A program made the position numbers and the translations under genes. A stretch of 64,000 bases of DNA. Source: Planctomycetia bacterium (GTDB taxonomy: Bacteria; Planctomycetota; Planctomycetia; Pirellulales; UBA1268). The notes below the pieces were generated by a model. The model was not told where the DNA came from, ran no database searches, and was given only the letters and a program-made list of their open reading frames with translations. The stretch lies in the NCBI GenBank assembly GCA_026401035.1, contig JAPLNR010000072.1:1-64000 (forward strand), written 5' to 3'. Positions 449-50,928 of this stretch are shown here, piece by piece; position 1 is the stretch's first letter, and every line of letters begins with the position of its first letter.

Positions 449-2748
<2,300 letters not shown>

Positions 2749-2766
2749 GACAGGCTTCAGCCTGTC
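2749..2766 (+). repeat. GACAGGCTTCAGCCTGTC palindrome, abuts ligA TAG stop
   Basis: Exact 18-mer; arms GACAGGC/GCCTGTC. Confidence 0.9.
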
Positions 2767-3881: not shown

Positions 3882-3922
3882 CTCGGCCATGAAAGCCGTG
3901 ACGACCGCCCTCCGGAAAGTGG

Positions 3923-3940
3923 GACAGGCTTCAGCCTGTC
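3923..3940 (+). repeat. GACAGGCTTCAGCCTGTC palindrome copy
   Basis: Exact 18-mer in context GGAAAGTGGGACAGG. Confidence 0.9.
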
Positions 3941-3979: not shown

Positions 3980-4079
3980 CGGCAGAAGTCTCCTTCGCGC
4001 TGCATTTTCTCCGCTGACGACCTACGGAGCTGCTGACCTCAGGAGGTCGAAAATGCAGACGCTCGTCGAGCTTCAGCCG
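3980..4079. ncRNA. 100-nt three-stem structured intergenic element, copy A (RNA or folded DNA repeat; strand unknown)
   Basis: P1 CGGCAGAAG(3980-3988)/CTTCAGCCG(4071-4079); P2 CTGCATTTTC(4000-4009)/GAAAATGCAG(4049-4058); P3 CGACCT(4018-4023)/AGGTCG(4044-4049); same architecture as copies at 17662 and 38023. Confidence 0.65.
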
Positions 4080-4135
4080 ACCGCCTCCCCAGCAAGTGGC
4101 TTCACGCAAAACTCGAGCATTCTGCCGGAAAGTAG

Positions 4136-4153
4136 GGCGGGCTTCAGCCTGTC
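4136..4153 (+). repeat. degenerate palindrome copy GGCGGGCTTCAGCCTGTC
   Basis: Context GGAAAGTAGGGCGGGCTTCAGCCTGTC. Confidence 0.75.
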
Positions 4154-7561: not shown

Positions 7562-7619
7562 AACGGCTTGTCCCAACCCGGCTACGGCTTTCGCGCTGTC
7601 GCCGCAAATAGCCCAATCC

Positions 7620-7761
7620 GGCTTCGGACTACCCGTGCCCCGTCGCCGGACGTTCGCTACGGGCATCCATGCCCTTCGCTCACTCGATGCTGCCCGCGCT
7701 TCGCCATCCTGGCTGCGCTTGGCAGCAACGCCGGCTCCTGGGGCACGGGTAGCCCGAAGCC
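7620..7761. repeat. 22-bp inverted repeat flanking about 98 bp
   Basis: 7620-7641 GGCTTCGGACTACCCGTGCCCC vs 7740-7761 GGGGCACGGGTAGCCCGAAGCC (21/22 complementary). Confidence 0.75.
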
Positions 7762-17661: not shown

Positions 17662-17761
17662 CGGCAGAAGTCTCCTTCACGCTGAAATCTCTCCTTTGAC
17701 GACCTACGGAGCTGCTGACCCCAGAAGGTCGAGATTTCAGACGTTCGTCGAGCTTCCGCCG
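17662..17761. ncRNA. 100-nt three-stem structured intergenic element, copy B
   Basis: P1 17662-17670/17753-17761; P2 CTGAAATCTC(17682-17691)/GAGATTTCAG(17731-17740); P3 17700-17705/17726-17731. Confidence 0.65.
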
Positions 17762-17823
17762 ACCGGCTCCTCAGTATCGGGAGGTGGAAAAGGCAAATGG
17801 TGGCTGTCACCTTTTTCGCTGCA

Positions 17824-19698: not shown

Positions 19699-19755
19699 CG
19701 AAAAGGGCTCCGTGAGATGGGCGAATCCGCGGTGGAGTTTTATACTCTCCCCCCT

Positions 19756-21123
19756 ATGGCGGACACATTGATCGTGAGCGTGTCGGGATTACGCGGTGTC
19801 GTGGGCACGAGCCTCACACCCGACGTGGCGGTGCGGTATGCCGCGGCGTTTGCCGACACGCTGCCCCCCGGCCCGATCGTGATCGGCCGCGACGGCCGCA
19901 CGAGCGGCCCCATGCTGGCGGCCGCGATCTCCAACTATCTGACCGGGATCGGCCGCGACGTGATCGACTGCGGCGTGGCGGCCACGCCCACCGTCGGGAT
20001 CGTGGTTCGCGACGAAATCGCGGCCGGCGGCATCCAGATCTCGGCCAGCCACAATCCCGCGGCCTACAACGGCATGAAACTCTTCTCCCGCGCGGGCCGC
20101 GTGCTCTCGGCAGCCGCCGGCAAGAAGGTGCTCGAACGATTTCAGGCCATCGCCCCGAGCGACGAAACGCGGCCGCTGGCCGAGACCGTCGGGGATGTCC
20201 GGGAAGTGGACGGCACGGCCGCGCACGTGCGTCTCGTCGCGGCGACCGTGGATGTCGCGGCGATCCGCCGCCACCGGCCGCGGGTCTGGCTCGACAGCGG
20301 GCATGGCGCGGGGAGCCGCGTGGCCGTGCCGCTCCTCGAGCATCTCGGGTGTGAGATGGTGATCGAAGGGGGCGAGCCCGACGGGCTGTTCGAGCATCTG
20401 CCGGAGCCGACGGCCGAAAACCTCGCCGGCATGCTGCCGCGAATTGCCGCCGCGAAGGCCGATGTCGGCTTCTTCCAGGATCCCGACGCCGACCGGCTCG
20501 CGATCGCCACGGCCGACGGCCGCTACATCGGTGAGGAGGCGACGGTCGCGCTGGCGGTCGAAGGCGTGCGCGCCAAGCGGCCGGGGCCGATCGTCGTGAA
20601 CTGCTCGACGAGCGGCATGGCCGCCGCGATCGCGGCCCGTCATGGCGTGGCCTGCCATATCTCGGCGGTGGGCGAGGCGAATGTCGTCGAAAAGATGAAC
20701 GATACGGCCGCCGTGCTCGGCGGCGAGGGGAATGGCGGCGTGATCGATCCGCGGGTGGTGCTCGTCCGCGACAGCTTCGTGGCGATGGCGCTGGTGCTCG
20801 AGCGGATGTGTGCCGGCGAAGCGCTCACGAGCATCGATGCCCTGGCCCGCGCGCTGCCGCAATTCGTGATGAAGAAGACGAAGGTCGATCTCTCTCCGGA
20901 GATCCGCGGTCCGGCGCTTGCCGAGGCCCTCGTGCGGATCGAAAAAGCTTTTCCGGAGGCGAAGCCCGACCGGCTCGACGGCCTGCGGCTCGACTGGCCC
21001 GGCGGCTGGCTGCTCGTGCGGAGCAGCAACACCGAACCGATCGTGCGGCTCGTCGCCGAAGACCGCGACGCGGCGAAGGTCGACGAAGCCCTGGCCCGCG
21101 CGGCGTCGGCACTGCTTCAGTAG
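19756..21123 (+). CDS. glmM: phosphoglucosamine mutase-like phosphohexomutase
   Basis: VSGLRGVVGTSLTPDVAVRYAAAF, QISASHNPAAYNGMKLF, FFQDPDADRLAIA, RSSNTEPIVRLVAE. Confidence 0.85.
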   Translation: MADTLIVSVSGLRGVVGTSLTPDVAVRYAAAFADTLPPGPIVIGRDGRTSGPMLAAAISNYLTGIGRDVIDCGVAATPTVGIVVRDEIAAGGIQISASHNPAAYNGMKLFSRAGRVLSAAAGKKVLERFQAIAPSDETRPLAETVGDVREVDGTAAHVRLVAATVDVAAIRRHRPRVWLDSGHGAGSRVAVPLLEHLGCEMVIEGGEPDGLFEHLPEPTAENLAGMLPRIAAAKADVGFFQDPDADRLAIATADGRYIGEEATVALAVEGVRAKRPGPIVVNCSTSGMAAAIAARHGVACHISAVGEANVVEKMNDTAAVLGGEGNGGVIDPRVVLVRDSFVAMALVLERMCAGEALTSIDALARALPQFVMKKTKVDLSPEIRGPALAEALVRIEKAFPEAKPDRLDGLRLDWPGGWLLVRSSNTEPIVRLVAEDRDAAKVDEALARAASALLQ

Positions 21124-21141
21124 GACAGGCTTCAGCCTGTC
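21124..21141 (+). repeat. GACAGGCTTCAGCCTGTC palindrome, abuts glmM TAG stop
   Basis: Exact 18-mer. Confidence 0.9.
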
Positions 21142-21150
21142 GAATACATC

Positions 21151-21168
21151 GAAAGGCTTCAGCCTGTC
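21151..21168 (+). repeat. palindrome copy GAAAGGCTTCAGCCTGTC
   Basis: 17/18 match. Confidence 0.85.
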
Positions 21169-21177
21169 GATGTGGGT

Positions 21178-21195
21178 GACAGGCTGAAGCCTGTC
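21178..21195 (-). repeat. GACAGGCTTCAGCCTGTC palindrome, abuts DUF3748 gene TAG stop
   Basis: Plus strand reads GACAGGCTGAAGCCTGTC|CTA. Confidence 0.9.
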
Positions 21196-22653
21196 CTACT
21201 TTTCGACTTTGGGCAGGACTGCGGGATCGGCCGACACGATGAAAATCTGGTTGTGCGGTGCGGCCGCCGGCAGCCGCCGCATGAACGCGATCCGGCGGCC
21301 GTCGGGAGAGAAGACGACCGCCTCCGGCAGCGGGTCCGCGCCGTCCGCGCGGCGGTCCGTGAGGCGATGCGACCTTCCCGTCTGCACGTCGACCGTCATC
21401 ACGCTGCCGTCGGCGGCGTAGGCGATGCAACTGCCGTCGGGGCTCCATGTGAAGGCGCTGGCGACGTTCCACGGATCGCGGGTCACCTGCTGGGCCGCGC
21501 CGCCCCAGGGGTTCACGGTGAAGAGTTGCACGACGCCGTCGTCGTCGCGCATGAGAAACGCGATCCGGGCGCCGTCGGGACTCGACCGCAGCCAGTGCCG
21601 CGGTCCCTGGATGCCCGGATGTTTGCGGCTCGCGGTGAACGTGAGCCGCCGCTGCACCACGCCCCGCGGCGGGCAGGGGCGGCGGGTGGCCGTGCCCGCA
21701 AGCGGTCCGGTGCTGGGTTCCGTGAACGCCGTCGGATCGTCGGGCAGGTCAACGATGAAGACCTCGCTGATGGTCTCGCCATGGGCCGTCCTGACGAGCC
21801 CCTGACAGGCAAGGGCATACCGCTGCCGCGAGCCGTCCGGGCGGCGATAGCCCGCGGTGCCGATCCACGCTTCCTCGAACGCCTTCGAGATCTCCTCACT
21901 GCCAGGCCGCGGCGCGTCGTGGAGCGTCGTGACGAGCACCGTGAACGCCGCGCCGTCGTGGTTCCGCGGATGAGTCGCGGGCACCCGCACGGGCTTGCCG
22001 CACACGCTGACCCCCACTCCGCGCAGGTTGGCCTGCGGACAGTCGCTGCCGGCCGCGGCGGCCGCCACTGCCGCGCCGAGCACCGCGTCTTCGTACGTAA
22101 AGCTCACGAGGCGGCCGTCGCCGCTGAAGGTGTGCACGTGGCTGCCACCCCGCAACGCGCCGGGCGTGAACGGTGCCAGGAGGTCGCGGGCGTCGAGATT
22201 TTCTGCGACACCCGGCCGGGAGCACTGCACGACAACGCCCTGCCGGTGGGCCGGGCCGTACTGCCAGTCGGGCGTGGGGTTCTCGGGCCCGAGAATGAAC
22301 ACGCTGCGGTCATCGACTGGGCTCGCCGTCACCACGCCACAGCACGCGCCGTTCCGGGCTGCATAGAGCACCTCGACACGGCCAGTCGTCGCTTCGACCC
22401 GCTCGATCCGCACACCGTCGAAGACCGAGCCGTCAGCACCGGACCGCGTGTCGTAGACGATCCACCGCGAGTCGGCCGACCACGCAAATGCGTTGGTCAG
22501 CATGTGGCCGTGCGGTGCGGTCGTGAGTTGTTGCTCGCCCATCCGTGGATCATCAGTTGCCCGTGAGGCCGTGAGCCCAAGCCGGTTCCGCAAGGCCAGG
22601 CTCTCCGGATCAACCACCGAACGCTGCGACAAGAGTGTAGGGAAGTTCTTCAC
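21196..22653 (-). CDS. DUF3748 (YidR-like) beta-propeller protein
   Basis: HGHMLTNAFAWSADSRWIVYDTR, VFILGPENPTPDWQYGPAHRQGVVV, LDARDLLAPFTPGALRGGSHVHTFSGDGRLVSFTYED; matches the E. coli YidR pattern as remembered. Confidence 0.8.
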   Translation of the reverse strand: MKNFPTLLSQRSVVDPESLALRNRLGLTASRATDDPRMGEQQLTTAPHGHMLTNAFAWSADSRWIVYDTRSGADGSVFDGVRIERVEATTGRVEVLYAARNGACCGVVTASPVDDRSVFILGPENPTPDWQYGPAHRQGVVVQCSRPGVAENLDARDLLAPFTPGALRGGSHVHTFSGDGRLVSFTYEDAVLGAAVAAAAAGSDCPQANLRGVGVSVCGKPVRVPATHPRNHDGAAFTVLVTTLHDAPRPGSEEISKAFEEAWIGTAGYRRPDGSRQRYALACQGLVRTAHGETISEVFIVDLPDDPTAFTEPSTGPLAGTATRRPCPPRGVVQRRLTFTASRKHPGIQGPRHWLRSSPDGARIAFLMRDDDGVVQLFTVNPWGGAAQQVTRDPWNVASAFTWSPDGSCIAYAADGSVMTVDVQTGRSHRLTDRRADGADPLPEAVVFSPDGRRIAFMRRLPAAAPHNQIFIVSADPAVLPKVEK

Positions 22654-29730: not shown

Positions 29731-29748
29731 GACAGGCTGAAGCCTGTC
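29731..29748 (-). repeat. GACAGGCTTCAGCCTGTC palindrome copy
   Basis: Plus strand GACAGGCTGAAGCCTGTC. Confidence 0.9.
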
Positions 29749-29769: not shown

Positions 29770-29787
29770 GACAGGCTGAAGCCTGTC
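29770..29787 (-). repeat. GACAGGCTTCAGCCTGTC palindrome, abuts sigma-factor TAG stop
   Basis: Plus strand GACAGGCTGAAGCCTGTC|CTA. Confidence 0.9.
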
Positions 29788-31296
29788 CTACTCTTCGAGT
29801 TCGGGTAGGACGGCTTCGGCGGCGGCCGCCTCGCGGAGCTTCTCGAGGGCCTTGGCCTCGATCTGACGGACGCGTTCCTTCGTCACGCCGAGCGCGGAGC
29901 CGACTTCCTTCAACGTCTGCGGATCGCGCTCGTGGTCGAGCCCGTAGCGGCGGATGATGATCGTCTGCTCACGCGAGTCGAGCCGGTCGAGGAACTTGCC
30001 CACCTGCTGCAGCCGATCGTTTTCGGCGAGCCGCAGCTGGTATTCGTCCGTCCGACGATCGGTCGCCGACTGCAGCATGTCCATGTCGGCGGCGCGGAAG
30101 CGGTCGCGACGACGGTGCTCGTCGGGGATCGTGCGGGCGTAGTTCTTCATGATCGCCCACGAGGCGTAGGTGCTGAACTTGTTGCCCCGCGAGTAGTCGA
30201 ATTTCTCGACCGCACGGATCAGAGACATGTTGCCGTCACTGACCAGGTCGAAGAAGCTGTCGCCGGGCGCCACTCGCCGCTTCGCGATCGAGACGACGAG
30301 CCGCAGATTCGACCGCACGAGCCGGTTCTTCAGGGCCACGATCTCTTCGTAGAGCTTGTCGATCTGATCCATCAGCCGCGTGCTCGGCCGTTCGGGATTG
30401 AGCTGCTCGCGGAGTTTCGAGGCCTTGTACTTGAGGAAGTTGAACTTTCGGAACAGCCACACCTCCTGCTCCCGCGTGAGCAGCGGCACCTCGTAGAGAC
30501 TGGCCAGGTAGGCGGGCAGACCGGATGGGCGGCGAACCTTCTTCGTCGGCTCGTTCAGGCCGGGGAACGGCTGGTCGACCACCTTCTCGGCACTCTTCCG
30601 GGCGAAGAGGGCGTTGGGAATGAAGTCGAGCGGCAGCTGCACCACATGCTCCGCACGCTGGGCGAGGATCACTCGATAGATGCTCGCCTTGGAGCGGCGG
30701 TACCGCTTGGCGATCGACTCAACCGGCTCGCCCTGCGCGTAGAACTGGAAGATGCGGGCGCACGTCTCGGGCCGGAGCTTGCCTTCGTCCGCCGCGAAGA
30801 CGGCCAACTCGGGATGGTCCTGGTCATGCTGCTTGATCGTGTAGCGGATCGTCTCGACGCTGCGATTGAGCCGACCGGCGATTCGCCGGTGGACGTCGGC
30901 CGGGCAGGCGCCCGCCGCGGCGAGCCGCCGGGCCCAGGAGATGATCCGATCGTGCTCGTCTGGCGTGAGCTGACTGAACCGGGCGCCACGCTCGATCCGC
31001 AGTGGATTCGAGGCAATGAAGCGATCGACGGCACTCTTCAGAAAGCCGACCCGTTTGCGGCCGCCGATCTCGTACCGCTGGGCCACGAGCCCATGCTCGC
31101 GCCACCGGGAGATCGTCTTCGTCGAGACATTGAATTGCTCGGCGAGATCCTCGATCGACAGCACCTCGTCGTCGGCGCCGACCTTTCCGCCCTGCTCCTC
31201 GGAGAAGAGACGGATCATCGACTGAGCCTGGCTCGAGGCATCGGCGGAGTCAGAACCAGCGCCGGGGAAATCACCATCGGGAAAATTGGAACGCAT
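29788..31296 (-). CDS. sigma-70 family RNA polymerase sigma factor with N-terminal MerR/excisionase-like HTH extension
   Basis: Regions 2-4: LVRSNLRLVVSIAKRRVAPGDSFFDLVSDGNMSLIRAVEKFDYSRGNKFSTYASWAIMKNYAR; KEVGSALGVTKERVRQIEAKALEKLR; N-term SIEDLAEQFNVSTKTISRWREHGLVAQRYEIGGRKRVGFLKSAVDRFI. Confidence 0.92.
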   Translation of the reverse strand: MRSNFPDGDFPGAGSDSADASSQAQSMIRLFSEEQGGKVGADDEVLSIEDLAEQFNVSTKTISRWREHGLVAQRYEIGGRKRVGFLKSAVDRFIASNPLRIERGARFSQLTPDEHDRIISWARRLAAAGACPADVHRRIAGRLNRSVETIRYTIKQHDQDHPELAVFAADEGKLRPETCARIFQFYAQGEPVESIAKRYRRSKASIYRVILAQRAEHVVQLPLDFIPNALFARKSAEKVVDQPFPGLNEPTKKVRRPSGLPAYLASLYEVPLLTREQEVWLFRKFNFLKYKASKLREQLNPERPSTRLMDQIDKLYEEIVALKNRLVRSNLRLVVSIAKRRVAPGDSFFDLVSDGNMSLIRAVEKFDYSRGNKFSTYASWAIMKNYARTIPDEHRRRDRFRAADMDMLQSATDRRTDEYQLRLAENDRLQQVGKFLDRLDSREQTIIIRRYGLDHERDPQTLKEVGSALGVTKERVRQIEAKALEKLREAAAAEAVLPELEE

Positions 31297-35863: not shown

Positions 35864-37906
35864 ATGATCATCTCCACGAACTGGCTGGCCGATTACGTGC
35901 AGGTGCAGACCACGACGGAGCAGCTCGTCGAACGGCTGCTCATGTCGGGGCTCAATCATGAGTCGACCGCGACGGTCGGTGCCGATACGGCCGTGGAGAT
36001 CGAGGTGACGAGCAACCGCTCCGATTGCCTCGGGCACATCGGCGTGGCCCGCGAGGCCGCGGTGCTCTTCGCGCGGCCGCTCCACGTGCCCGATCCGCGG
36101 CCGCTGGAAGGGGGCGGCCGGGTGGCCGAGAGCATCGCCGTCGAGATTCGCTCGGCCGATGTCTGTCCCTTTTATACCGCCCGCGTCATTCGCGGTGTGC
36201 GGGTGGGGCCGAGCCCCGCCTGGCTCGTCGAGCGGTTGGCGACGGTCGGCGTCGAGAGCGTCAACAACGTGGTCGACATCACCAATTACGTGATGCTCGA
36301 GTGCGGGCAGCCGCTGCATGCCTTCGATCTGGCCAAGATCCGCGGTGGCCGCATCGTCGTACGGCGGGCCGCGGAAGGGGAGCCGTTTACGGCGATCAAC
36401 CACAAGACCTACACGCTCACCGGACAGATGTGCGTGATCGCCGATGCCGCCGGCCCCGTGGCCCTCGCCGGGGTGATGGGGGGCGCGGAGAGCGAAATTT
36501 CAGCCGCCACCACCGACATCGTCATCGAATCGGCACAGTTTGCGCCCCTGGCGGTGCGGGCCGCCGCGCGGGGGCTCGTGCTGGCGAGCGGTTCGTCCTA
36601 CCGCTTCGAACGCACCCCCGATCCCGCGGCCGTCGACTGGGCCAGCCGCCGCGCCGCGGCGCTGATCCTCGACAGCGCCGGCGGCACGCTTGAACGCGGC
36701 GTCGCCGAGGCGGGCACGCTCGCCTGCGCACCGGCCACGATCGACCTGCGGGCAACGCGGGTTCAGGAAGTGCTCGGAATCGACATCCCCTCGGAACGGC
36801 AGCAGGCGATCCTCACCGGTCTCGGGTTCGTCGCCGTCAAGCCGCTGGCCGACGGCCCTTCGCGGTGGCAGGCCCCGACCTGGCGCCGCGATGTCTGGCG
36901 GGAGATCGATCTCGTCGAAGAGATCGCCCGCATCGAGGGCTACGACAAGGTGCCGGAGGATCGGCCGATCACCGCCCGGCCCGTCGAACTCTCGCCGCGC
37001 GAGCAGGCGATCCGCACGGCATCGGCCGTGCTCGTGGCCGCCGGGATGTGCGAGGCCCTGACACGCAGCGTCGTCAGCGTCGCCATGGAAGTGACGCAGA
37101 GCCCCTGGGGCGCGGCCCCGCCGCTCGTCGTGTCGCCAGCGCTCGTTCGTGGTGCCGACCGCCTGCGGCGCACGCTCCTGCCCAGCCTGCTCGAGGCCCG
37201 CGCGGGCAATGTCGCCGTCGGTGCCCCGCATGCCGAACTGTTCGAGGTGGCCCGCGGCTACATCGGCCGCGATTCAGACCACAGGCCCGACTCGCCGATT
37301 CAGGAGCCGCTGCTGGTGTCGTTGGTGACGGGCGGCGCATTCACGGCCGCCAAGGTCCGCGCCGAGGCGGTGCTTGCGCGACTCGGTGTCGCGGCCACGT
37401 ATCGGCCGATCGATCTCGACCTCTTTGCCCGCGGCCGCTCGGCGGAAATCCTCCTCGAGCGACCGGGCCAGCCGGCCGAACGGATCGGTGTGGTGGGAGA
37501 ATTTTCAGCGGCGGCGCTCAAGGCCGCGGGGCTCGACACGCCGGTCAGCGGTGCGGAACTGCGGCTGGACCGGCTCGAATTCGCGGTCGGCATCGAGAAG
37601 AAGCTCCGGCGGCCGAGCGACTTCCCGGCCGTGGAGCGGGACGTGAACCTCGTCGTCGACGACGCCGTGGCGTGGGGCCACGTCGCGGCCGCCGTCAGCG
37701 AGACAGCCGGCGATCTGCTGGAGCAGTGCCGGCTGGTGCAGGTGTGGAAGGATGCCGATCGTCTCGGAGTCGGCAAGAAAAGCCTGGTCATATCGCTCCG
37801 GTTGCGGAGCGCCACCGGAACGCTCTCCAGCGAAGACGCCAACCGTACGGTCGCGGCCGTCGTTGAAGCCTGCGGCCGACAGGTCGGCGCCGTGCTGCGG
37901 AAGTAG
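35864..37906 (+). CDS. pheT: phenylalanyl-tRNA synthetase beta subunit
   Basis: MIISTNWLADYV; EVTSNRSDCLGHIGVAREAA; VNNVVDITNYVMLECGQPLHAFDLAKI; FDX-ACB C-terminus. Confidence 0.96.
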   Translation: MIISTNWLADYVQVQTTTEQLVERLLMSGLNHESTATVGADTAVEIEVTSNRSDCLGHIGVAREAAVLFARPLHVPDPRPLEGGGRVAESIAVEIRSADVCPFYTARVIRGVRVGPSPAWLVERLATVGVESVNNVVDITNYVMLECGQPLHAFDLAKIRGGRIVVRRAAEGEPFTAINHKTYTLTGQMCVIADAAGPVALAGVMGGAESEISAATTDIVIESAQFAPLAVRAAARGLVLASGSSYRFERTPDPAAVDWASRRAAALILDSAGGTLERGVAEAGTLACAPATIDLRATRVQEVLGIDIPSERQQAILTGLGFVAVKPLADGPSRWQAPTWRRDVWREIDLVEEIARIEGYDKVPEDRPITARPVELSPREQAIRTASAVLVAAGMCEALTRSVVSVAMEVTQSPWGAAPPLVVSPALVRGADRLRRTLLPSLLEARAGNVAVGAPHAELFEVARGYIGRDSDHRPDSPIQEPLLVSLVTGGAFTAAKVRAEAVLARLGVAATYRPIDLDLFARGRSAEILLERPGQPAERIGVVGEFSAAALKAAGLDTPVSGAELRLDRLEFAVGIEKKLRRPSDFPAVERDVNLVVDDAVAWGHVAAAVSETAGDLLEQCRLVQVWKDADRLGVGKKSLVISLRLRSATGTLSSEDANRTVAAVVEACGRQVGAVLRK

Positions 37907-37930
37907 GGTGGCCTTCAGGCTGCCGTGCCT

Positions 37931-38022: not shown

Positions 38023-38122
38023 CGGCAGAAGTCGCCTCACACGGCATCTTCTCCTTTGACGACCTACGGCGATTCATGCCCCAGAAGGTCGAAGAAGCCT
38101 CATGTTCGTCGAGCTTCTGCCG
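38023..38122. ncRNA. 100-nt three-stem structured intergenic element, copy C (divergent)
   Basis: P1 CGGCAGAAG(38023-38031)/CTTCTGCCG(38114-38122) perfect; P2 GGCATCTTC(38043-38051)/GAAGAAGCC(38091-38099) 8/9; P3 38060-38065/38086-38091. Confidence 0.65.
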
Positions 38123-38136
38123 ATTCCGTCTCCTCA

Positions 38137-38215
38137 GCATCCGCAGCATTGGGGGCATCTGCAGCTTTGGGGGCATCCGCAGCATCGGGAGCTTTGCTGC
38201 GTTGGGAGCTTTGGG
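38137..38215. repeat. 18-bp tandem repeat (GCATCCGCAGCATTGGGG-like, about 4 units)
   Basis: Copies at 38137, 38155, 38173, 38191 (last degenerate). Confidence 0.8.
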
Positions 38216-41910: not shown

Positions 41911-44346
41911 ATGGTTGCCCCGATCCACGCCCTGGTCGCCACCTGCCGGCAGACCACCTCGACGACCGCCCTGACGACCGCCCTGCTCGTTTCCACGCTC
42001 TGGCTGACCGGTGTGCATGGGAATGCGGCCGCCCGCGGTGACGACTCAACCGTCGGCGGCGTGGCCGTGGTGCCCAAAGACGCCGCCTTCCTCTCCGCCT
42101 CGCTGCGGCTGCGTGAGCAGTACGACCTGTTCGTGAAGAGCAACGCCTTTGCCGCGGTGCGAAACCTGCCGGCAATGCAGCGGGCGATCGAGAGCTTCGA
42201 GGAGCAGGCGACGCAGCCCGGCAGCCCGCTCTCGACACTGGCCACGTTCATGGAGCTGCCCGAGAATCAGCAGGCGCTGGAGGTGCTCAAGGACATGATC
42301 GCCAGCGACACGTTCGTCTACGGCGAGCCGTCGTGCATCACCTTCATCGAACTCATGGTGAAGCTGCAGCAGGCGCAGCAGGCGGCCAACGTCCTGCAGA
42401 TGGCCCGCGGCGATTCCTCATTCGGTGGTATCGAAATCGATGCGTTCGAGGGCCTCGACGGCATCGAACTCGATGATCTTCAGGATACCGACGATGATGA
42501 AGAAGACGACGACGGTGCCGCGGCGCCGCGGCGGCTGCCCGTGCTGCCGGTCCGCTTTCAGGCCGTCGAAGAAGAGGAGATCTCGTCCGACGAACTCGCC
42601 GGCCGCCTGCTCCTGCAGACGCTCGCCGACAACACCGACCTGATCGTGGTGCCCGACCTGATCTGGGGCTTCAAGACCACGAAGCTGCCCGCCGCCGAGG
42701 GGCAGCTCAAGCGGATCGAAGTGCTCATCAAACTGGTGACACAGGCCAACCCGGATCTCGCCGAGTCGCTGGAGCGGCGGAAAATCGCCGGCGGCGAGGT
42801 GGTCACGTTCACGATCAAGGGCCAGTCGCTCCCCTGGGAGGAAATGACCCGCGAGGCGACCGACGGCATGGACGGCGAGGCGCTCGACAAGGTCCGCGAA
42901 CGGCTCCGCGAACTCGACATCGTCGTGGGGCTCGGGATCATCGGCGACCACGTGATCCTTTCGATCGGCGATTCGGCCGACCATCTCGAGAAGTTGGTGA
43001 AGCCGGGTGCTGGCGGCGGGCTGACGGCCACGAAGCCCTTCGCACCGCTGGTGGCCCATCTCGCCACCCATAAAGACAAGCGGATCACCGGCATCAATTA
43101 CATCAGCGAGCCGCTCGCCAAGGCGATCGCACCGTCGGCCGCCGACATCGAGCAACTCGCGGCCCTCAGCGACAAGATCGCCGCCGCCGCCGATCTGCCC
43201 GAGGGCGCCGCCGAAGAGGCGAAGAGTTTTCTCGCCAAGGCCGCGGCGGGCTACAAGCAGCGGCTGCCCGTGCCCGGCCCGTGGATGTCCTATTCCTTCC
43301 TGACCGAGCAGGGTTACGAGGGCTATGCGTGGAATTGGGCGAAGAATCTGCCCATCGATGGCTCGAAGCGGCTGGAACTCCTCGAGCACGCCGGTGGAGC
43401 GCCCCTCGGGGCCCTGGTGTTCCGCACGAAGAATGATCCCGCGCAGTTTGAGGACCTCGTGTTGTGGGGCGACATGGCCCGGAAGTTCTTCAAGAAATAC
43501 CTGCTTTCCAAGACGGGCGACGAGGCCCGCGAGAAGGTCGAGGAGGCCGACGAGCACCTCGTGCCGCTGGCCGAGAAATTGGTCGGTATCCTGCGGACGA
43601 AGATCCTGCCGGCGGTCGCAGATGGCCAGATCGGTCTCGTGCTCGATGCCAAGAGCAGAACGAAGCGGCCGCAGGCAGGCCTGCCGGAAGCGGTCGAGCC
43701 GCTGCCGCTCATCGAGCCGGCGATCGTGCTCGGCATCGATGATCCCAAACTCTTTCGCGAGGGCATGAGCGATATCTTCGCGCTCACCGACCAGCTGGTC
43801 GATGCGGTCCGGGAGATCAGCCCCGATGCGGTGCCGGCCGAGTATCGGATTCCGGATCCCGAAAAGACCAAGCTCGACAAGGGCTCCGTCTGGTCGTGGA
43901 AGCTGGATCGCAGCGGTGTCGACGAGCAGGTGCGGCCGGCGATCGGCGTCGGCGACGACGTGGCCGTGTTTTCGCTGCTGCCCAAGCAGGCCGGCCGACT
44001 GCTGGTGGAAAGCCGGCTCGAGACCGGCTCGCAGCTCTCGAAGTTTGACGAGCCCCTGGCCGCCGCCGCCGCGCTCGACTTCGCCGGCTTTGTCGATGTC
44101 ATTCAACCCTGGATCGTCTATCTCACCCGCTACGGCTGCGTGCAGCAGCGTGACGGGAGTGTCGACCGCGATGCCGAACTCACGGCCGACGTCGAAAATG
44201 AACAGGCCCGCGATGCGCTCAGGAACGTGGCGGTGGTATGCGAGGCGCTCAAGTCGCTGCGGGCGGCGGTCGCCGAGATGTCGACCACCCCCGATGCCAC
44301 CGTCACCCACTGGCGGAACGTCATCCGCGACATGCCCGCCAAGTAG
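41911..44346 (+). CDS. hypothetical secreted protein with acidic insertion
   Basis: 811 aa ORF, signal-like N-terminus, DDLQDTDDDEEDDDGAAAPRR tract. Confidence 0.8.
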   Translation: MVAPIHALVATCRQTTSTTALTTALLVSTLWLTGVHGNAAARGDDSTVGGVAVVPKDAAFLSASLRLREQYDLFVKSNAFAAVRNLPAMQRAIESFEEQATQPGSPLSTLATFMELPENQQALEVLKDMIASDTFVYGEPSCITFIELMVKLQQAQQAANVLQMARGDSSFGGIEIDAFEGLDGIELDDLQDTDDDEEDDDGAAAPRRLPVLPVRFQAVEEEEISSDELAGRLLLQTLADNTDLIVVPDLIWGFKTTKLPAAEGQLKRIEVLIKLVTQANPDLAESLERRKIAGGEVVTFTIKGQSLPWEEMTREATDGMDGEALDKVRERLRELDIVVGLGIIGDHVILSIGDSADHLEKLVKPGAGGGLTATKPFAPLVAHLATHKDKRITGINYISEPLAKAIAPSAADIEQLAALSDKIAAAADLPEGAAEEAKSFLAKAAAGYKQRLPVPGPWMSYSFLTEQGYEGYAWNWAKNLPIDGSKRLELLEHAGGAPLGALVFRTKNDPAQFEDLVLWGDMARKFFKKYLLSKTGDEAREKVEEADEHLVPLAEKLVGILRTKILPAVADGQIGLVLDAKSRTKRPQAGLPEAVEPLPLIEPAIVLGIDDPKLFREGMSDIFALTDQLVDAVREISPDAVPAEYRIPDPEKTKLDKGSVWSWKLDRSGVDEQVRPAIGVGDDVAVFSLLPKQAGRLLVESRLETGSQLSKFDEPLAAAAALDFAGFVDVIQPWIVYLTRYGCVQQRDGSVDRDAELTADVENEQARDALRNVAVVCEALKSLRAAVAEMSTTPDATVTHWRNVIRDMPAK

Positions 44347-44397
44347 GGCGGGCTTCGCGTGGCTGGAACGCCAATCGTGGGTTTGCCGGGAGTTCAA

Positions 44398-49511: not shown

Positions 49512-50810
49512 ATGCCGAAGCGAAACCTTCTCCTCCTGTGCCTGCTCACGGTCGTCTGCGTTCTGGCCTGGACCGCCCGTGACCGTGGCGTGCACGGCCG
49601 CCACTTCGGCGAGGTGCTGGCGGCGATCGAGCGGTCGTATCTGGAACCGGTCGATCCCGAGACGCTCTTCGACGCCGCGATGGAGGGAGTCTTTGCAAAA
49701 CTCGACGAGCACTCGGCCTTTCTCGACAGCACGGCCCGGCAGGGGCTCGATGCGGCGCTCGACCAGGAATTTGGCGGCGTCGGCCTGGAACTGTCGGTCG
49801 ACGAGCGGGCAGGCACGCTCGTCGTCCAGAGCCCCATCCTGAACTCGCCGGCCTGGCGGGCCGGCATCGTGACGGGCGACCGGATTCTGTCGATCGACGG
49901 CGTCTCCGCCCGCGGCCTGAAATTCACGGAGGCGGTGGCGGCGCTGCGGGGACGTCCCGGCACCCCGGTGACGGTCACGGTCAACGATCTAGACCGTGTG
50001 GTCACGCTCGATCGTGAGGTCGTGCGCACCGAGAGCGTGCTCGGAGACCGCCGGCGGCCCGATGGATCATGGGAGTGGTTCGTGGAAGGAGAGCCGGGAA
50101 TCGCCTTCATCCGCATCACCGGGTTCGGCGACCACACGCTCGAGGAGTTGGACCGCACGATCGGCGAGATCAGCGGCACGCCCGGGCTGAATGGCGTCGT
50201 TCTCGATCTGCGCGGCAATCCCGGCGGACTGCTCGCCGTTGCCGTCGAGGCCTGTGATCGGTTTCTCGACGAGGGCGTGATCGTGTCGACGCGGGATCGC
50301 GTTGCCCGGCAGTCTGCGCTGCTCGACGTCCGGCGGGCCACGGCCGGCGCCGCTTTTCCGGGCGTGCCCCTGGTGGTGCTCATCGACGGTCTCACTGCGA
50401 GTGCCGGTGAAATCGTGGCGGCCTGCCTGCAGGACAATCGCCGCGCGGTCGTCGTCGGCAGCCGCTCGTTCGGCAAAGGCACCGTGCAGTCGATCCTGCC
50501 CCTCTCCGACGGCCGGAGCCTGCTCAAGCTCACGACGAGCGAATACCTGCGGCCGAGCAGCGTCAACATCCAGCGGCGCGAGGGCGATGCCGAGTGGGGC
50601 GTGTCGCCCGAGGCGAAGCACGAGATCAATCCGCCGGCCAAAACGCTCGAGGCGGTGAAGGCATGGCGGGCAGGCCGCGACGCGGTGTTGCCGCCCGATG
50701 CAACCGCACGTTCAGCCGAGCCGGCGTTGGACGAGGGACAGTCGGCGGCAACGCTGCCCCGGCAGGTCGACCCGGTCCTCGCCCGGGCGTTGGAAGTGCT
50801 CGCCCAGTAG
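49512..50810 (+). CDS. S41 family C-terminal processing peptidase with PDZ
   Basis: LDQEFGGVGLELSVDE ... GDRILSIDGVSARGL; VVLIDGLTASAGEIVAACLQDNRRAVVVGSRSFGKGTVQSI. Confidence 0.93.
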   Translation: MPKRNLLLLCLLTVVCVLAWTARDRGVHGRHFGEVLAAIERSYLEPVDPETLFDAAMEGVFAKLDEHSAFLDSTARQGLDAALDQEFGGVGLELSVDERAGTLVVQSPILNSPAWRAGIVTGDRILSIDGVSARGLKFTEAVAALRGRPGTPVTVTVNDLDRVVTLDREVVRTESVLGDRRRPDGSWEWFVEGEPGIAFIRITGFGDHTLEELDRTIGEISGTPGLNGVVLDLRGNPGGLLAVAVEACDRFLDEGVIVSTRDRVARQSALLDVRRATAGAAFPGVPLVVLIDGLTASAGEIVAACLQDNRRAVVVGSRSFGKGTVQSILPLSDGRSLLKLTTSEYLRPSSVNIQRREGDAEWGVSPEAKHEINPPAKTLEAVKAWRAGRDAVLPPDATARSAEPALDEGQSAATLPRQVDPVLARALEVLAQ

Positions 50811-50928
50811 GGCGGGCTGCAGGCTGACCGGATACCGGCCACCACAACTCACCGCTCGGGTTTAACGGGATCTTGATTCGTTTCTTGCCGCCGTGAGGAA
50901 GCTGTGGCACCGCTTGGCTTGAGGCCCG

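Follow-up and report, generated by a model that had tools for sequence, protein, structure and literature searches.

A GTAG-headed REP family, nearly limited to one planctomycete genus, often shares its TAG with the stop codon of the adjacent gene

REPs are common in bacteria, and their position downstream of genes is usually attributed to selection. REPINs (Bertels and Rainey) are REP doublets, and the inverted pairs described here resemble them in having GTAG at both outer ends. GTAG REPs were defined by Di Nocera et al. (2013, PMC3733652), who reported planctomycete cases, R. baltica among them, and stated, in one sentence of the text, that GTAG termini "often provide" a TAG stop to flanking ORFs. 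The present family has in common with that superfamily, as the text presents it, a short palindrome, an unpaired end GTAG, hundreds of copies, head-to-head pairs, and a location downstream of genes; its stem and its restriction to one genus were not found in the text of that paper, figures apart. That GTAG REPs supply TAG stops, and that they occur in Planctomycetes, is already known, and this is a new family of a known type. Three things are quantified here relative to the text of PMC3733652 and are new, judging from the papers searched: the statistics of zero-distance coupling, the test of ortholog stops, and the sharing of stop slots between REP families. Literature searches on REP/RAYT cleavage or targeting found no report of target choice by REPs at stop codons. 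A gammaproteobacterial REP, GTAGGGTGGGCTTcAGCCCACC of Haemophilus influenzae (Nunvar et al. 2010, PMC2817692), has the same architecture, including the TTCA loop and the GTAG head. The IS200/IS605 elements (PMC6006769) insert beside a fixed short target and share a related enzyme family, hairpin ends, and a tetranucleotide at the hairpin foot, the likeness being the insertion 3' of a short motif that we propose below; however, no complete element is present here, and their guide and target tetranucleotides are separate, whereas our proposal makes GTAG act as the target.

The window, i.e., the whole 64,000-nucleotide stretch analyzed (positions 1 to 64,000 of contig JAPLNR010000072.1, assembly GCA_026401035.1), contains 15 strand-matches to the 18-bp core of the palindrome at up to three mismatches, against 0.09 expected from shuffling. 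All eight palindromes of the original prediction were found where it had placed them, six of them exact, the one at 21151 with one mismatch and the one at 4136 with two; they are given here, heads included, with three degenerate copies.

2745-2766, plus strand: exact GTAG-REP; TAG at 2746-2748 is the stop of ligA (709-2748)
3919-3940, plus strand: REP, core exact, head GTGG; no convincing gene stops there
4132-4153, plus strand: REP with GTAG head (AAAGTAG) and two core mismatches; between convergent genes, no called gene stopping there
21120-21141, plus strand: exact GTAG-REP; TAG at 21121-21123 is the stop of glmM (19717-21123); left arm of a head-to-head, REPIN-like pair
21151-21168, plus strand: core with one mismatch and without GTAG head; inside the 21120-21199 pair
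21178-21199, minus strand: exact GTAG-REP, inverted; TAG at 21196-21198 is the stop of the DUF3748 gene
29731-29748, minus strand: core exact, GTAG head absent; 21 bp past the 29770 copy
29770-29791, minus strand: exact GTAG-REP; TAG at 29788-29790 is the stop of the sigma-70 gene
37904-37922, plus strand: degenerate copy, AAGTAG GGTGGCCTTCAGGCTGCC; starts at the TAG stop of pheT
44344-44360, plus strand: degenerate copy, AAGTAG GGCGGGCTTCGCG; starts at the TAG stop of an 811-aa gene
50808-50826, plus strand: degenerate copy, CAGTAG GGCGGGCTGCAGGCTG; starts at the TAG stop of an S41 peptidase gene

A TAG stop directly before the palindrome was confirmed for ligA, glmM, the DUF3748 gene, and the sigma-70 gene, whose names are backed by Pfam (NAD-dependent DNA ligase, phosphoglucomutase/phosphomannomutase, DUF3748 protein, and sigma-70 factor, respectively); the nearest relatives of ligA come from planctomycete metagenome assemblies, many labelled Planctomycetaceae or Pirellulales. 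The degenerate versions that had been noted after pheT, the 811-aa gene, and the S41 peptidase gene are likewise present, with four, three, and three mismatches in their first 11 bases. Four of the listed copies lie away from called stops, those at 3923 (GTGG), 4136 (AAAGTAG), and the headless 21151 and 29731. The two facing copies at 21120-21199 have as their outer GTAG ends the stops of the convergent glmM and DUF3748 genes, and the 80-nt unit folds as RNA into one long hairpin (-64.6 kcal/mol, z -12). A separate interspersed repeat of ~110-150 bp, at 3985-4135, 17667-17774, and 38028-38139 of the window, gave 24 BLAST matches in 0.85 Mb, several of them near REPs; another frequent repeat, GGCGAGACGGTACGGGGTAACCCCGAGCCGGATTGGGC, lies beside REPs in the sister species G001 (flanks of loci L261-L310) and has 15 matches in the sample of the present genome, one at window 7601-7657.

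The consensus of the palindrome, head plus 18-bp core, is (A)AGTAG-GACAGGCTTCAGCCTGTC, and its stem-loop is GACAGGC-TTCA-GCCTGTC; there is very little doubt that it is a GTAG-headed REP. GTAG is unpaired in the RNA fold, giving the 20-40 bp palindrome with an unpaired end GTAG that characterizes the superfamily. A profile of 90 copies of the present genome (G000), taken at up to three mismatches, showed the head at -4 to -1 (G 0.90, T 0.81, A 0.85, G 0.90) to be conserved to much the same degree as the stem and GTAG to be preceded by A-rich positions; heads of TAGG were found in 65 of 89 copies of the G000 sample. Across the 3.77-Mb, 82-contig draft genome, the core matches 311 times forward and 315 times in reverse with two mismatches or fewer, near-palindromic copies being counted on both strands in these totals, and the core with its GTAG head has 167 forward matches, a high copy number such as marks the superfamily; the reversed core, used as a control, gave 0 and 1 matches at the same threshold. 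A chance origin of the palindromes is ruled out by the shuffled-window and reversed-core controls. Forward core matches number 13-166 in each of the five other genomes of the genus; beyond it, a second genus has a few, a single copy occurs in one more genome, and the core is absent from the remaining sampled genomes of the family and order. The REP family is almost confined to one genus.

Coupling to stop codons was measured in 0.852 Mb of G000, comprising the window and 40 further stretches, in which our own in-frame hexamer model called 719 genes (89% coding) and which contains the 90 copies at up to three mismatches; p values throughout are descriptive. Like the superfamily, the copies are mostly extragenic and mainly downstream of genes: 85 of the 90 lie outside called genes, 55 of them in convergent and 27 in unidirectional gaps. 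In 41 of the 90 the head's TAG also serves, in frame, as the stop codon of the gene before it. Seventy copies have a gene end facing their head; the 41 lie at zero distance from it, whereas uniform placement within gaps predicts 4.1. The sister species G001 has 32 of 98 copies coupled in the same way, and exact coupling thus holds for about 33-45% of sampled copies; that it lies far above chance is virtually certain. The enrichment at stops, and the conservation of the head, roughly equal to that of the palindrome itself, bear out the original view that the TAG stop belongs to the conserved unit. The last codon of REP-coupled genes ended in -AG in 80% of cases, mostly as AAG, compared with 17% of other TAG genes, 6% of TGA genes, and 21% of TAA genes. 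Head-to-head dimers are frequent, with inverted pairs in the window and in the genome and 11 "+-" clusters in G001, and at six convergent gene pairs each stop is one GTAG end of a facing REP pair. The base preceding GTAG is species-specific, A in G000 and T or C in G001, which fits either a part of the element or a target preference.

Our overall best explanation, which we regard as reasonably probable, is that GTAG-REPs, present in this genus both singly and as head-to-head, REPIN-like pairs, were moved in the past, presumably by a RAYT (a single-strand HUH tyrosine transposase), and that each copy went in just 3' of an (N)GTAG already present. Insertions would survive outside coding sequence, where many GTAG sites are TAG stops, and copies would accumulate precisely at gene ends with the TAG common to gene and REP; the hairpin at the gene end may then act on the 3' end of the mRNA. 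That insertion beside a pre-existing TAG was the main route we consider evenly balanced. More tentatively still, and with somewhat more doubt than belief, we propose that N is set by the element or transposase of the species (A in G000, T/C in G001), that TAG stops would thus be preferred landing sites for this class of mobile hairpin, and that successive REP families reuse the same stops across species.

The census of sites bears on this target reading in both directions. Among noncoding sites of G000, 21% of GTAG and 49% of AGTAG are TAG stops, and REPs occupy 40/115 stop, 20/300 intergenic, and 4/2448 genic GTAG sites. For AGTAG in G000, the expected stop share is 0.49 and 33 of 51 copies were at stops; for TGTAG in G001, the expectation is 0.39 and the observation 18 of 49. 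The stop share among available AGTAG and TGTAG sites, together with the loss of genic insertions, would therefore account for most of the coupling without any special function. However, when GTAG is counted regardless of its 5' neighbor, coupling (40/59, with 0.21 expected) exceeds site frequency and argues against the target reading. In the published view (PMC6006769), moreover, the REP carries GTAG as its guide sequence rather than meeting it as a target, and this view and the one-codon excess described below both speak against GTAG as target.

Whether TAG preceded the element can be addressed through orthologs. C-terminal tiles of 80-85 aa from coupled genes of G000 were traced into G001, G003, and G005, and tiles from coupled genes of G001 into G005, G004, and G002, with other genes as controls, yielding 135 comparisons with element-free orthologs, which are non-independent because several orthologs may represent one gene. 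A TAG stop was present in 67 of the 135 (50%), compared with 21/44 (48%) for ordinary TAG genes, 11/88 (12%) for TGA genes, and 25/94 for any operon-terminal gene, the last being lower than REP-stop genes (p = 6e-4). Per-gene means gave the same order (REP-stop 0.53, ordinary TAG 0.41, terminal 0.28, TGA 0.15), with p = 5e-4 by per-gene permutation of REP-stop against operon-terminal genes. The TAG share of REP-stop genes equals that of ordinary TAG genes, and they thus behave as genes already ended by TAG, a comparison which suggests that the hairpins settled beside stops already in place rather than reshaping proteins. G precedes TAG in 76% of element-free orthologs compared with 52% of controls (p = 0.054). 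Counting against the target reading, about half of the element-free orthologs stop with TGA or TAA.

Few empty sites align on both sides because sister genomes are only ~75-89% identical in DNA; matches at four mismatches within coding sequence were left out of this comparison as non-REP. In the clearest case, G001 has CCGTAG, an inverted REP pair, and then the next gene, and in G004 and G005 GGGTAG stands directly before the start of that gene, i.e., a REPIN in G001 corresponds to CGGGTAG without a REPIN in both others. GTAG is also present at an empty site in G004, GCAAGTAG, where G001 has a REP, and at one in G001, CTGTAG, where G000 has a REP; at certain other empty sites TGA or TAA stands in place of TAG. 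A REP was common to both orthologs in only 25 of 176 comparisons, and most sites therefore turn over within the genus.

It had been suggested that the element redefines C-termini, but protein ends with and without it are largely alike: across 135 comparisons, the element-free ortholog stopped at the identical residue in 46% and no more than one residue away in 78%, and many of these orthologs already have a TAG without a hairpin. The sigma-70 protein ends in LPELEE in every genus member readable to its end, whether the gene finishes with TAG and REP, TAA and REP, TAG alone, or TGA alone, and ligA is of identical length in all genus members readable to its stop. The element therefore lies at the native gene end, and C-terminal truncation as a general rule is contradicted by the ortholog end positions. 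Agreement of ends resembles that of control genes save for one excess: 29 of 135 element-free orthologs are one residue shorter, compared with 7 of 132 controls (p = 1e-4), and the focal genes that are one codon longer often have AAG or CAG before TAG, as if in some cases the extra codon came with the element. The excess, the several empty orthologs with TGA or TAA at the same residue, and the published role of GTAG as a guide carried by the REP (PMC6006769) would all follow if the REP carried (AA)GTAG, inserted broadly, and survived mainly where its in-frame TAG replaced the native stop within one or two codons, the element then supplying the stop. We judge this rather unlikely, although it is the alternative that survives best: selection alone should leave many copies a few bases past stops, whereas G000 has 41 at distance 0 and only ~11 over the following 40 bases, and TAG is kept by element-free orthologs at the rate seen for ordinary TAG genes.

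Alternatively, the TAG of element-free orthologs could be a vestige of lost elements, the REPs having stood at these stops in the ancestor of the genus and having later been lost or replaced in some species with TAG left behind. Degenerate remnants follow 15 of 153 non-REP TAG stops compared with 4 of 411 TGA stops (p = 2e-6), a partly deleted copy is present at an orthologous stop in G005 (gene S00), and different families occupy common slots. Yet G, the first base of the stem, is not enriched after TAG (24/67 element-free orthologs vs 58/145 ordinary TAG stops), and when orthologs with G after the stop were dropped as possible relics, TAG was still found in 43 of 96; such old insertions are an unlikely general source of the TAG stops. 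Least probable, and in our judgment quite improbable, is selection for function, in which a stop-abutting hairpin would protect mRNA 3' ends, slow ribosomes, or terminate between convergent genes, the varied palindromes reflecting repeated recruitment: the single hairpin (-10.9 kcal/mol, z -3.6), the far more stable paired unit, the 55 of 90 copies between convergent genes, the different palindromes at the same orthologous stops, the terminator-like score of the 21178 copy, which is followed by CTACTTTT, and the effect that E. coli REPs have on translation when a stop lies within 15 nt (cited in PMC12306157) all agree with it, but most copies have no U-tract after them, sister species rarely have a REP at the same stop, and function alone leaves unexplained both the zero distance and the TAG at all 41 coupled ends of G000. 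A role of the REP as a 3'-end hairpin is possible; intrinsic termination was rejected for most copies, as the downstream profiles in G000 and G001 have no T-tract, one inverted copy having CTACTTTT.

It had been suggested that a RAYT-like transposase be looked for elsewhere. The sister G001 encodes a full-length RAYT protein (L172; 66 bits, below the NCBIfam cut-off of 80), but in the 94.5% complete draft of G000 the single Y1_Tnp match is a truncated RAYT fragment covering 28-87 of 121 profile positions, which matches the NCBI REP-associated tyrosine transposase weakly. Gammaproteobacterial REPs flank a RAYT gene (PMC2817692), whereas no REP core lies within ~1.5 kb of the remnant in G000 or the full-length gene in G001, and neither resembles a REPtron in this respect. 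The flank scan itself works, since it detected inverted GTAG hairpins on both sides of RAYT genes, in a REPtron-like arrangement, in G032 (L183) and G027 (L185) of the same order.

The exact TAG coupling, the TAG found in half the orthologs that lack an element, and the different families at the same stops offer target choice at stops as an alternative to selection; if true, this would explain the distribution of REPs and would tie stop-codon choice to a mobile element. With regard to the different families, a second GTAG palindrome, GTAGCGACGGAGCTCCAGCTCTGTCG, and variants of it (GTAGCGACAGGCCTCCAGGCCTGTCG) were found at seven of the same orthologous TAG stops in G004 (loci L311-L371), at genes whose G001 orthologs bear the other palindrome.

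Two further palindromes were observed. One with a GTGG head, GTGGGGCAAGCGTCTCGCTTGCC / GTGGGGCGACCGTCCCGGTCGCC, recurs near gene ends in G001, G002, and G005. The other, a longer palindrome of G000, GTAGTCCGCT...AGCGGACTAC, follows TAG stops on both strands of contig C43, at the end of the minus-strand gene 130197-132356, and apparently supplies both stops of one convergent pair.
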